A stretch of DNA of 64,000 nt from an uncultured Duodenibacillus sp. (GTDB lineage Bacteria > Pseudomonadota > Gammaproteobacteria > Burkholderiales > Burkholderiaceae_F): the NCBI GenBank assembly GCA_944390745.1, contig CALXQK010000005.1, positions 124,001 to 188,000 on the forward strand, written 5' to 3'. The first letter of the stretch is position 1, and every line of letters begins with the position of its first letter. Positions 16,801 to 20,443 of this stretch are shown here, piece by piece. Both the position numbers and the translations under genes were made by a program. Under the pieces are notes generated by a model, which was not told the DNA's origin, made no database searches, and saw nothing but the letters and a program-made list of their open reading frames with translations.

Positions 16801-16913
16801 TTTATCGTATTTTTCATGGTTTTTGGGTAGTTTCCCATAAGTAAAAACCCTGATTTTTCTTCGTCCGTCTGTCTTTGAAACCGGTGTTTTTCGGCTGCAA
16901 TCCTGATGCAAAT

Positions 16914-16989
16914 GCGCAACGGACGGATGCGCCGGAGGTTGAAAATCAAGCCTTCGGGAATCAACCGGCAGGTTTGCAGAGCGTTGCGC
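16914..16989. repeat. Nested inverted repeats upstream of nrdD
   Basis: An outer stem pairs GCGCAACG (near 16914) with CGTTGCGC (near 16982). An inner stem pairs GCC..GGTTGA with TCAACCGGC (about 16931-16970), with a 3-base bulge. The structure could form in RNA from either strand. It may be the 5' part of a longer minus-strand RNA or part of the nrdD control region. Confidence 0.4.
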
Positions 16990-17028
16990 CGATGCTTCAA
17001 ACCCCGGGATTGTCCTGAGTGTTGACAG

Positions 17029-17079
17029 GCACAAGATGTTGTGCATGAGGTCAATGCGCATCCCCACCGATGGTATATT
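17029..17079 (+). promoter_or_regulatory. nrdD control region: NrdR-like palindrome and -10 element
   Basis: GCACAA-GATG-TTGTGC (17029-17044) is a 16-bp palindrome with the CACAA/TTGTG arms and length of NrdR boxes. NrdR is the family's nucleotide-sensing repressor of ribonucleotide reductase genes. A convincing second box at the usual ~31-base spacing was not found. TATATT (17074-17079) is a good -10 candidate about 165 bases before nrdD. TTGACA (17022-17027) overlaps the palindrome but has no -10 at the right spacing. Confidence 0.45.
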
Positions 17080-17244
17080 TCAAAACCTCAGCCCCACGCC
17101 ATGCGCATGCCTTCCCGTCGGGACGGCCGGCGGGCGGGGACTGCGTTGACAGCAGCGTGCAGACCGCCCGCGCAGGCGCGCCTTGAGCGTTTTGCGGCGC
17201 TGTCCCTGGGAAAACAAAAACAAGATTGTGGAGATGAACGAAGT

Positions 17245-19305
17245 ATGGCCACTGAGCTCAAGTATCTGATCAAGCGCGACGGCTCCGTGAAGGATTTTGA
17301 TGCGTCCAAGATTGCGCGCGCCATCGAGCGCGCGGGCAAGGCCACCGGCGAATTCGGGGCGGCCCGCGCCGAGGAGATCACCGAGCAGCTGGTGCTGCCC
17401 AGGCTCGCCTCGCTCAACCTTGCCACGCCGCACATCGAGCAGATCCAGGACGCCGTCGAGCACGCTCTTTTTGAGGCGGGCTTTTTTGCGACGCTTCGCG
17501 CCTACATCGTCTATCGCGAGCAGCGCGCCAAGAGCCGCGACGCCAAGAAGAGCTGGGTCGACGTTGAATCCTCGATCAACGAGTACCTCGATCAGGTCGA
17601 CTGGCGCGTCAACGCCAACGCCAACCAGGGCTACAGCCTGGGCGGCCTCATTCTCAACGTCTCGGGCAAGGTGATCGCCAACTACTGGCTGAGCTACATC
17701 TATACGCCCGAGATTGGCCTGGCGCACCGCAACGCCGACTTTCACATCCACGATCTCGACATGCTCTCGGGCTACTGCGCGGGCTGGAGTCTGCGCACGC
17801 TGCTCAACGAGGGCTTCAACGGCGTTCCCGGCAAGGTTGAGGCCGGCGCCCCGAAGCACCTGTCCTCGGCCACCGGGCAGATCGTCAACTTCCTGGGCAC
17901 GATGCAGAACGAGTGGGCGGGCGCCCAGGCCTTCAGCTCGTTTGACACCTACATGGCCCCCTTCATCCGCAAGGACAACGTCCCCTACGAGGAGGTGGTG
18001 CAGTGCATGCAGGAGATGATCTACAACCTCAACGTGCCGAGCCGCTGGGGTACGCAGACGCCCTTCACGAATCTCACCTTCGACTGGACGTGCCCCGAGG
18101 ACCTCAAGGGCCAGCACCCGCTCATCGGCGGCGAGGAGATGCCCTTTACGTACGGCGACCTGCAGCACGAGATGGACATGATCAACCGCGCCTACATCGA
18201 GGTCATGATGAAGGGCGACGCCAAGGGGCGCGTGTTCACATTCCCGATTCCGACCTACAACATCACGCCCGACTTCGACTGGGACAGCCCCAACGTGCTG
18301 CCGCTGTTTGAAATGACGGCGCGCTATGGCCTGCCGTACTTCCAGAACTTCATCAACTCCGAGCTCAAGCCCAACATGATCCGCTCGATGTGCTGCCGTC
18401 TGCAGCTTGATCTGCGCGAGCTGCTCAAGCGCGGCAACGGGCTCTTCGGCTCGGCCGAGCAGACCGGGTCGCTCGGCGTGGTGACGATCAACTGCGCGCG
18501 CCTCGGATACCTCTTCAAGGGCAATGAGAAGGCGCTCTACGACCGGCTCGATCATCTGCTTGAGCTGGCGCGCCAGTCGCTTGAGATCAAGCGCAAGGTC
18601 ATCCAGCACCACATCGACCAGGGGCTTTTCCCGTACACCAAGCGCTATCTGGGCACCCTGCGCAATCATTTCTCGACCATCGGCGTCAACGGCATCAACG
18701 AGATGATCCGCAACTTCTACGACGACGCGCACGACATCACCGATGCGGTCGGACACGCCTTTGCGCTCAAGGTGCTCGATCATGTGCGCGAGCGTCTCGT
18801 GCAGTTTCAAACCGAGACCGACCACATGTACAACCTTGAGGCCACGCCCGCCGAGGGCACGACCTATCGCTTTGCCAAGGAGGACAGGAAGCGCTTCCCG
18901 GACATCCTGCAGGCCGGAACGGCGAAGAATCCGTACTACACGAACTCCTCGCAGCTTCCGGTGGGCTTTACCGATGATCCCTTCGAGGCGCTCGAGATGC
19001 AGGAGGACCTGCAGAAGAAGTACACGGGCGGCACCGTGCTGCACCTCTACATGAACGAGGCGATCAGCTCGGCCGAGGCCTGCCGCGATCTGGTGCGCCG
19101 CACGCTCACGCGCTTCAAGCTGCCCTACATCACGGTGACGCCCACCTTCTCGATCTGCCCCAAGCACGGCTATCTCTCCGGGCGCCACGACTTCTGCCCG
19201 CTGTGCGACGCCGAGCTCATCGCGGCCAAGAAGGCCAGAATCGCCCAGGCCCGGCACGAGGCCGAGCGCGCCGCGCAGATGCAGGCGCCCGCGGCGCACG
19301 CATAG
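17245..19305 (+). CDS. nrdD: Anaerobic ribonucleoside-triphosphate reductase NrdD lacking the glycyl-radical end
   Basis: Reduces ribonucleoside triphosphates to deoxynucleotides without oxygen. The 686-residue product has an N-terminal ATP-cone (about 1-95) and the ten-stranded barrel with the MIRSMCCRLQL cysteine region. It ends with a zinc-ribbon-like CPKHGY...CPLC motif and a 30-residue Ala-rich tail. The motif RVxGY that holds the radical glycine in normal NrdD is absent; it is on the next gene. The ATG at 17245 follows GGAGAT and gives the typical MATELKYLIKRDG beginning. The next gene starts 176 bases later with its own Shine-Dalgarno, so this is a split, not a simple frameshift. Confidence 0.92.
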   Translation: MATELKYLIKRDGSVKDFDASKIARAIERAGKATGEFGAARAEEITEQLVLPRLASLNLATPHIEQIQDAVEHALFEAGFFATLRAYIVYREQRAKSRDAKKSWVDVESSINEYLDQVDWRVNANANQGYSLGGLILNVSGKVIANYWLSYIYTPEIGLAHRNADFHIHDLDMLSGYCAGWSLRTLLNEGFNGVPGKVEAGAPKHLSSATGQIVNFLGTMQNEWAGAQAFSSFDTYMAPFIRKDNVPYEEVVQCMQEMIYNLNVPSRWGTQTPFTNLTFDWTCPEDLKGQHPLIGGEEMPFTYGDLQHEMDMINRAYIEVMMKGDAKGRVFTFPIPTYNITPDFDWDSPNVLPLFEMTARYGLPYFQNFINSELKPNMIRSMCCRLQLDLRELLKRGNGLFGSAEQTGSLGVVTINCARLGYLFKGNEKALYDRLDHLLELARQSLEIKRKVIQHHIDQGLFPYTKRYLGTLRNHFSTIGVNGINEMIRNFYDDAHDITDAVGHAFALKVLDHVRERLVQFQTETDHMYNLEATPAEGTTYRFAKEDRKRFPDILQAGTAKNPYYTNSSQLPVGFTDDPFEALEMQEDLQKKYTGGTVLHLYMNEAISSAEACRDLVRRTLTRFKLPYITVTPTFSICPKHGYLSGRHDFCPLCDAELIAAKKARIAQARHEAERAAQMQAPAAHA

Positions 19306-19382
19306 GGCGGGGAATGTTTTTCGGACGCGGCGGCCGCCGGGTCGACCTGCCGCAGTCGTCCGCGTCCATGGCAAAATGGCGT

Positions 19383-19462
19383 CCGCTCCCCCGCGGGGAG
19401 CGGAGCGCCGGCACCCGAGGTTTTCAGGGTGCGCGTTTTCACCTGCGGGCCTTCCTGCAGGT
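19383..19462 (+). promoter_or_regulatory. Three hairpins between nrdD and the radical-domain gene
   Basis: Successive perfect stems: CCGCTCCCC/GGGGAGCGG (19383-19403), GCACCC/GGGTGC (19411-19432) and ACCTGC/GCAGGT (19441-19462). None has a T tract. The last ends 4 bases before the AGGAGG of the small gene. They may protect or process the mRNA so that the small radical subunit is made at a different level from NrdD; this is inference. Confidence 0.45.
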
Positions 19463-19481
19463 TGTTAGGAGGAAGCAAAAA

Positions 19482-19658
19482 ATGGCTCAGCAAGAACAAA
19501 ACGACATCAAGCTCAAGGACAGCGAACGCCAGCCCTGCGAGGTCTGGACGCGCGTGATGGGCTACCACCGCCCGGTGCAGTCCTTCAACATCGGCAAGAA
19601 GGGTGAGTTTGAGGAGCGCAAGTACTTCGTTGAGTCGAAGTGCGGCTGCTCGAAGTAG
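19482..19658 (+). CDS. nrdD: Separate glycyl-radical domain of class III ribonucleotide reductase
   Basis: A 58-residue protein matching only the C-terminal tail of NrdD: EVWTRVMGYHRPVQSFNIG followed by KKGEFEERKYF, ending ESKCGCSK. G27 in RVMGY is the expected radical glycine, activated by NrdG. AGGAGG (19467-19472) lies 9 bases before the ATG, so it is efficiently translated as its own protein. It sits between nrdD and nrdG, in the order expected for one enzyme cut in two. By analogy with GrcA (YfiD), which supplies a radical domain to damaged pyruvate formate-lyase, it should dock onto NrdD. Alone it has no catalytic barrel. Confidence 0.88.
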   Translation: MAQQEQNDIKLKDSERQPCEVWTRVMGYHRPVQSFNIGKKGEFEERKYFVESKCGCSK

Positions 19659-19702
19659 CCCGGCCTTGCTGACGGCGCAGCGCACCCTGCGCCTGAACGC
19701 CT

Positions 19703-20443
19703 ATGGATGAAACTATTCAAGCGGGCCCTGCGCCCGCTTCGCGTCTGCGGGTGGCTGCCGTCACCCCGTTTACGAGCCTTGACTACCCCGGAAAGCTTTC
19801 GGCGGTGGTCTTTGTGCGCGGCTGCCCCTGGCACTGCGTCTATTGCCACAATCCCTGGATGCAGCAGCGCGCCCCCGCCGAGGGCGACGAGAGCTGGGAG
19901 CGCGTCGAGCGGCTCATTGCCCGGCGCCGGGGGCTGCTTGACGCCGTCGTCTTCTCCGGCGGCGAGCCCTGCATGGATCCGGCCCTTGCCGCCGCCATGG
20001 ACGTGGTGCGCGCCCACGGCATGGCTGTCGGCCTGCACACGGGCGGCGCCTACCCGCACCATCTCGCGCAGGTCATCGACCGCGTGAGCTGGGTCGGACT
20101 TGACGTCAAGGGGGTGCCCGGAGACGAGGCGCACTTTGAGCGCGTGCTGCGCGTGCGCTCCGGCGCCCGGGCCTTTCTTGAGTCCTACGACATTGTGAGA
20201 AGCTCGGGCGTGGAGTTCGAAGCGCGCAGCACCGTGCACCCGGCGCTCTTTTCGCCCGAGCAGATTCTTGCCGCGGCCGAGTGGCTCGCCGCGCACGGCA
20301 CCCGCTGCTATGCCCTGCAGATCTACCGCAAGGCGCCGGGGCTTGAGACGGGACTCGACCCCGTCACCGGCGACTGGCCTGGAGCGGCCCTGGAGGAAAA
20401 GCTCCGGGGCATGTTTGAGCGCTTCGTCGTGCGGCGCGGGTAG
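19703..20443 (+). CDS. nrdG: Anaerobic ribonucleotide reductase activating protein NrdG (radical SAM)
   Basis: A radical-SAM enzyme that cleaves S-adenosylmethionine and abstracts hydrogen from the NrdD glycine. The [4Fe-4S] cysteines are C41, C45 and C48 (CPWHCVYC), followed by the FSGGEP SAM-binding motif near residue 93 and the GLDVKG segment. Its 246 residues are of the longer type seen in betaproteobacteria. It begins 45 bases after the small radical-domain gene and completes the nrdD - radical domain - nrdG unit. Confidence 0.9.
   Translation: MDETIQAGPAPASRLRVAAVTPFTSLDYPGKLSAVVFVRGCPWHCVYCHNPWMQQRAPAEGDESWERVERLIARRRGLLDAVVFSGGEPCMDPALAAAMDVVRAHGMAVGLHTGGAYPHHLAQVIDRVSWVGLDVKGVPGDEAHFERVLRVRSGARAFLESYDIVRSSGVEFEARSTVHPALFSPEQILAAAEWLAAHGTRCYALQIYRKAPGLETGLDPVTGDWPGAALEEKLRGMFERFVVRRG

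Follow-up and report, generated by a model that had tools for sequence, protein, structure and literature searches.

We analysed a 64,000-nt stretch of contig CALXQK010000005.1 from an uncultured Duodenibacillus sp. (the window; coordinates below are window positions) and found that its class III ribonucleotide reductase has the radical glycine on a gene of its own, 58 codons long, between nrdD and nrdG. To judge from the complementary homology of the two parts, their conservation, the purifying selection and the placement of the genes apart in some genomes, the locus very probably encodes an intact, obligate two-polypeptide class III reductase with a detachable radical subunit. In the open-licence literature passages on which our statements about published work draw, the radical glycine of class III reductases belongs to the catalytic chain, and no statement was found there of such an enzyme with the glycine on its own protein.

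The nrdD–nrdG locus of the window

The barrel subunit, NrdD (17245..19305, + strand; 686 aa, 77.7 kDa; PF13597, PF03477, NF006126), consists of an ATP-cone (residues 7–95), the NRDD barrel, an MCCR finger loop and a C-terminal metal ribbon, and scores 583.7 bits against PF13597 and 1137 bits against NF006126 (cut-off 548). The finger loop, SMCCRLQ, is of a described type (PMC9669993), and C306–C307 is invariant across 33 aligned relatives. The ribbon codons, CPKHGY...CPLC (19156..19206, + strand), which encode Cys638, His641, Cys651 and Cys654, are the final recognisable element ahead of the split: 32 residues after Cys654 the frame stops, and R-V-x-G-Y is absent. Barrel, finger-loop cysteine and adjacent nrdG, all features of a class III enzyme, are present, and only the glycyl-radical motif is absent from the same chain. 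An earlier examination of these letters (the sequence-only reading) had already recognised that NrdD lacks RVxGY and ends after a ribbon; its distance of 30 residues gives way to the measured 32, and the ribbon is corrected to CPxHGY...CPxC, with three cysteines and one histidine.

A gap of 176 bases (19306..19481, + strand) leads to the gene for the glycyl-radical subunit (19482..19658, + strand; 58 aa, CEVWTRVMGYHRPV). It lies in a different frame from nrdD, so that the two are not parted by one in-frame stop, and an AGGAGG ribosome-binding site (19467..19472, + strand) is followed nine bases downstream by its ATG. The protein starts MAQQEQNDIKLKDSERQPCEVWTRVMGYHRPV and contains RVMGY, in which the radical Gly27 is encoded by codon 19560–19562. 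Pfam NRDD (PF13597) is shared out between the two products, NrdD covering 2–529 (E 5e-175) and the small protein 531–562 (E 1.8e-8). Next comes nrdG (19703..20443, + strand; 246 aa), a radical S-adenosylmethionine activase of the NrdG2 type (TIGR02495, 167 bits, cut-off 131). The sequence-only description of a gene with its own AGGAGG and stop that encodes the motif only, with nrdG following, is thus borne out. The gap holds several predicted hairpins, and the fold of 19300–19490 is stable (z −3.2); that they represent a genomic repeat was rejected, the gap being single copy in the genome, and no promoter- or terminator-like sites were found in 19200–19760.

Conservation of the split and separation of the genes

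We sampled 61 genomes of the window's family, 80 of its order and 40 of Pseudomonas. An NRDD match is found in 37 of the family genomes, of which 33 have window-type NrdD, all 33 with a separate piece and none fused, by hand count from the search table (nrdD DNA was read in 28; G004, G045, G052, G053 and G060 were placed by match coordinates only, G053 and G060 being fragments). The remaining four are G031 and G044, with other NrdD types, and G042 and G058, with a second split described below. Among the order genomes, 26 have an NRDD match; window-type NrdD is split in 24 of 24 (12 read in DNA, three common to the family sample), and the other two are fused NrdDs that end RRVCGYLG and adjoin a short nrdG. 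Thirteen Pseudomonas genomes have a match (DNA read in three): 12 are two-piece, and in the thirteenth, G170, the halves lie in one frame interrupted by one TGA, the small gene having its own start. This conservation excludes chance. The search of related genomes suggested by the sequence-only reading found the separate piece in 33/33, 24/24 and 13/13. Stops between nrdD and the small gene, in frames that vary among relatives, were read directly in DNA. Long open frames had suggested fusions (e.g. 823 aa in G016), but a stop is present in every one read (L091–L093 and L310–L317, L316 and L093 being the same place). The ratio of nonsynonymous to synonymous substitution rates (dN/dS) of the window's small gene (43 codons) against 18 relatives is 0–0.37 in the 13 where dS was computable, and 11 of 129 bases differ between the window and L104 genes with every residue unchanged. 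The small gene is under purifying selection.

Outside these groups, the best 80 of at least 579 confirmed matches in a genome-contig collection comprise 69 loci with a separate piece and nrdD in the locus, 6 with a separate piece and no nrdD there, and 5 fused; nrdG is present in 76. Separate loci among the 80 belong to Pseudomonadota, Thermodesulfobacteriota, Latescibacterota, Omnitrophota and Verrucomicrobiota, and the fused ones to Chlamydiota (one), Actinomycetota (three) and an alphaproteobacterium (one). A Sulfuricurvum plasmid (Campylobacterota) also carries the split form. Of 19 different genomes searched for a class I/II large subunit, G144, G148 and G155, whose assembly completeness is not given, had no match. 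The split is a widespread form of the enzyme, not a peculiarity of the window genome. We considered fusion as the ancestral state and rejected it: in a quick tree of 86 NrdDs (midpoint root, Shimodaira–Hasegawa-like approximate likelihood ratio test only; root unsure, several long branches), the fused proteins (Actinomycetes with Acidiphilium, Simkaniaceae and alphaproteobacterium SZUA-601) sit among split ones, with four fused/split label changes, at least two forced by starred branches. As far as this tree goes, re-fusion would be likelier than many splits, although the root is unsure.

In some genomes the parts are encoded far from each other. Neither G001, where nrdD (L095) is directly followed by nrdG, nor G040 (L094) has a small gene next to nrdD; in each, the sole small gene adjoins a helicase gene that looks dinG-like from its sequence, and in G040 it lies ~1.3 Mb away on the same contig. 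The sole small gene and nrdD are on different contigs in G015 and G115, the small gene and nrdG lie ~9 kb from nrdD in G067, and three Holosporaceae assemblies (G146–G148) have the small gene and nrdG on one contig and nrdD on another. Since no read-through or frameshift can join parts so placed, assembly must be in trans. Trans assembly, proposed in the sequence-only reading, is strongly supported by this separation, by the separate piece in every genome with this type in the three groups and by a published NrdDG phenotype (see below).

Two NrdD subclasses are cut at the same place. In G042 and G058, a PRK07111-type NrdD (NF005497, 1051.7 bits) with a TIGR02491-type nrdG ends after the ribbon and is immediately followed by a gene of 52–53 aa with FERIRRITGYLVG (TAAGGAGAGCTCCCATG in G042); G058 has a further second-type copy on a different contig. 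In a search of 100 relatives of G042, this piece was found in G042 and G058 only. We infer that the two splitting events were independent.

Free-standing radical pieces on chromosomes and virus contigs

Nine of the 33 family genomes (G005, G008, G013, G023, G026, G034, G047, G051, G055) have an extra, unlinked small gene besides the linked one; G033 has two nrdD loci with a piece at each, and a Geobacteraceae locus has two small genes. The extra copies of G005, G013 and G026 lie in prophage-like lysis cassettes, judged from neighbours. The cassette of G026 (L086) has endolysin and Rz-like spanin matches, and the virus record L006 holds the same cassette and small protein. The other six copies have no phage-like neighbours by eye, the neighbours not having been scanned.

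Uncultivated-virus contigs were searched with the window's small protein (type 1) and with the PRK07111-type piece (type 2). Type 1 yielded 64 virus-contig loci with ~56 distinct cores. In 62 of them the motif lies in a non-NrdD frame with no nrdD or nrdG in the fetched flank, though 11 type-1 loci have <1 kb upstream, where nrdD could hide; L061 has nrdD ~2 kb away and L062 is below the length limit. Searches of 30 of the 64 whole records returned the C-terminal piece only (within 513–562) in 30/30. For type 2, the best 80 of 253 relatives are 61 alone (including the stop-interrupted L303 and L305 and some near-copies), 7 alone with nrdD nearby and 12 fused; 30 of the 61, chosen for having no nrdD near, contain only the piece in 30/30 records searched. 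No NrdD barrel is thus present in 60/60 chosen virus records of both types together, although many virus records are fragments, in which absence of nrdD is not proof.

One or two neighbouring proteins were tested at 27 type-1 loci, 16 of which have a virion, packaging or lysis gene; of 10 type-2 loci so tested, 2 have such a gene, and a DNA polymerase and an integrase were matched once each. The evidence of viral nature is therefore better for type 1. When 110 type-1 neighbours were pooled, the integrase, terminase, portal and tape-measure families drew up to seven matches each. The window's small protein falls in phrog_4132 of PHROGs, where no function is assigned.

Among 50,697 deposited phage records, type 1 has three matches: the short protein of ANMV-1, a second within an NrdD frame of 802 aa and a third within a 585-aa protein annotated as a class III reductase. 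Three of the 14 type-2 matches were opened: AR1086-1 is fused, MT835921 is part of a 380-aa frame and EL753P1 has an interrupted small gene. Of the six matches opened, ANMV-1 is the only one with a short copy that is intact and has no barrel in the stretch examined. The nrdD of this archaeal virus (L206, 2686–3120) encodes 144 aa, comprising ribbon-like cysteines and the glycyl loop only, and a virus scan with this protein found no relative. The available passage of the ANMV-1 paper infers from the virus 'an oxygen-sensitive ribonucleotide reductase' (PMC4372165), an example of how a short virus gene can be interpreted as a whole reductase.

Assembly, function and relation to known systems

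That the split enzyme works is suggested by Cupriavidus necator H16, whose plasmid pHG1 encodes an NrdD of 676 aa (76.19 kDa), a 66-aa piece and NrdG. The abstract of Siedow et al. 1999 reportedly gives this NrdD as 76.2 kDa, which matches the chain that lacks the glycine. NrdDG of this strain was reported as essential for complete denitrification, according to a passage of the CH34 genome paper citing Siedow et al. In the mechanism that we propose by homology, the small protein would dock in the barrel, at the position taken by the C-terminal tail in a one-piece NrdD, NrdG would place the radical on its Gly27, and the radical would then move to the finger-loop cysteine of the large subunit for catalysis. 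Since class III enzymes are cut by oxygen at their glycyl radical (PMC3019208), damage to a split enzyme would be limited to a 7-kDa protein; to see in this the purpose of the split is conjectural. By analogy with GrcA, replacement of oxygen-damaged pieces by spares is plausible. More specifically, oxygen may cost the enzyme only a replaceable small protein, for which free-standing chromosomal and viral copies serve as spares, an idea that we hold tentatively and with slightly more doubt than confidence. The broader proposal, an exchangeable cartridge that was detached at least twice independently, has spare genes in bacteria and is carried alone by many viruses to refill or repair the host reductase in anaerobic infection, seems to us evenly poised between true and false.

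The separate glycine could have another origin, in a sequencing error, a recent frameshift or the decay of a one-piece nrdD into a pseudogene. The genome does contain a second, full-length nrdD, and the small gene is unannotated in some records, but the piece is separate in all genomes of the three groups that have this NrdD type, frames differ among relatives with stops read directly, and selection is purifying; we give this explanation practically no credence, in agreement with the sequence-only argument against a recent frameshift from the 176-base gap, to which the different frames and the conservation in relatives are added. Programmed frameshifting, read-through or splicing might instead join the halves into one polypeptide, as would suit L091, L093, L209, L220, L311, L312, L314 and L315, where the two share a frame with a single stop between. 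However, frames vary among relatives, the small gene of the window is equipped with a start codon and ribosome-binding site of its own, and nrdD and the small gene are far apart or on different contigs in G001, G040, G015 and G115 and ~9 kb apart in G067, which makes joining highly improbable. A further alternative is that the small protein regulates or repairs a full-length NrdD rather than being an obligate subunit, much as GrcA acts beside a complete pyruvate formate-lyase (PMC8683613, as available in part). Its adjacent-encoded partner, however, has no glycine of its own, P. frederiksbergensis (G138) lacks any other PF13597 protein, and the small protein resembles the neighbour-type tail (CEVWTRVMGY, as fused in L076, L077, L161 and L193) and not the RVCGYLGY of the second NrdD; such a role is accordingly very unlikely. 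As for the virus copies, they might be decoys or inhibitors that occupy the radical site of the host enzyme. Nothing direct speaks for this beyond the general knowledge that phage takeover proteins often inhibit host enzymes, whereas R-V-M-G-Y is kept in 64/64 type-1 virus loci, though the glycine is in none of the six search patterns, and host and virus copies conserve a near-identical set of positions. We consider decoys unlikely, if less so than the other alternatives.

Several observations nevertheless weigh against an obligate two-part enzyme with an exchangeable piece. The second nrdD of the window genome, on contig C6, is of the E. coli type (720 aa, RVCGY) with its own nrdG, and the genome also encodes a class I/II type large subunit (two partial matches within one 598-aa frame), so the window copy need not be essential there. 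Contrary to what the sequence-only reading had expected of a second full-length nrdD, the claim of a split is unharmed by it, because it belongs to a different subclass. The five fused loci among the best 80 have window-type NrdD, and the split is therefore no requirement of the enzyme. In the AlphaFold model of one fused relative, L149 (predicted local distance difference test, pLDDT, 75.6), the glycyl tail (residues 592–632) is below 50; a PDB sequence search with the small protein found no relative, only one chance-level match (E 0.9). No FNR-type box at ≥8/10 was found in 16900–17260 or 19300–19720, and, of 18 copies that are unlinked or remote, only four (L080, L081, L211, L212) have scattered 8–9/10 matches. 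Free-standing virus copies are documented almost entirely from uncultivated-virus contigs, and virus copies are near-absent in the collection of deposited phage records. Finally, the open-licence passages offered experimental support for the repair idea for no reductase.

The two-polypeptide reductase has partial parallels. GrcA (YfiD) of E. coli and Y06I of phage T4 are likewise small free-standing proteins with a glycyl-radical end only, have copies in host and phage, and are expected to resemble the present protein in being activated by the partner's activase. Their partner, pyruvate formate-lyase, has its own glycine, whereas here the reductase subunit has none, which makes the small protein obligate; moreover, the small protein matches only PF13597 in Pfam (E up to 1) and only NrdD models in NCBIfam. 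The GrcA comparison drawn in the sequence-only reading is apt, and the copies in chromosomes, prophage-like cassettes and virus contigs extend it. NrdJa and NrdJb of P. aeruginosa also place a functional C-terminal piece of a reductase on a separate gene, but the enzyme is class II and, in the passage available, the piece is a cysteine-rich re-reduction domain and not the radical site (PMC5704485). One-piece NrdDs (T. maritima, E. coli, L. lactis, T4) share the barrel, the metal ribbon, the NrdG partner and, by homology, the RVxGY-type loop; theirs is a single chain, which in the window is broken between ribbon and loop. Reductase subunits in pieces are known from the phage genes Aeh1 nrdA and phiAS4 nrdD (PMC3653736, in part); there, homing endonucleases, introns, inteins or unexplained breakage affect single phages, whereas here the split is common to several phyla. 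Members of the small-protein family also occur in phrog_4132 and among short RefSeq products named 'nrdD', with no function or only the parent enzyme's name and the split unstated; annotation pipelines evidently see the small protein.

Because its radical and its barrel can be combined, labelled or swapped separately, a natural two-part form offers a direct route to the study of radical transfer. It also bears on a question left open in the passage of Andorfer et al. 2021 available (PMC8683613), namely, whether glycyl radical enzymes besides pyruvate formate-lyase have spare-part proteins; were the piece truly an exchangeable cartridge, it would constitute such a system. Judging from the virus copies, anaerobic phages may control the dNTP (deoxynucleoside triphosphate) supply of their hosts with a gene of ~150–300 bases.

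Variants of the radical piece

The fused NrdDs L149 (2752–4650) and L167 keep a small-protein-like N-terminus (LTDEERE or LNDNERQ) before CEVW, which is how the scar of a secondary fusion would look. L167 (3–1679), the SZUA-601 alphaproteobacterial protein, ends with two tandem glycyl-radical motifs ~56 residues apart. Among type-2 virus copies, L305 (1846–1974), L303 (4001–4156) and L306 (3925–4081; Eggerthella phage EL753P1) have a short insertion with a stop, or a break of frame, at the codon of the radical glycine or next to it; the 952-aa NrdD of EL753P1 ends after the ribbon. In L062 (3986–4110), a TGA stands at a conserved glycine (N-x-G-K-K) of the small protein, and frames of both L041 and L062 are much longer with TGA read as a residue; these are probably viruses with recoded TGA, perhaps as glycine. 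Finally, L015, L047, L051–L053, L059, L065 and L066 have an extra cysteine-rich N-terminal stretch (e.g. CAHLIE...C..C..Y) before the radical motif.

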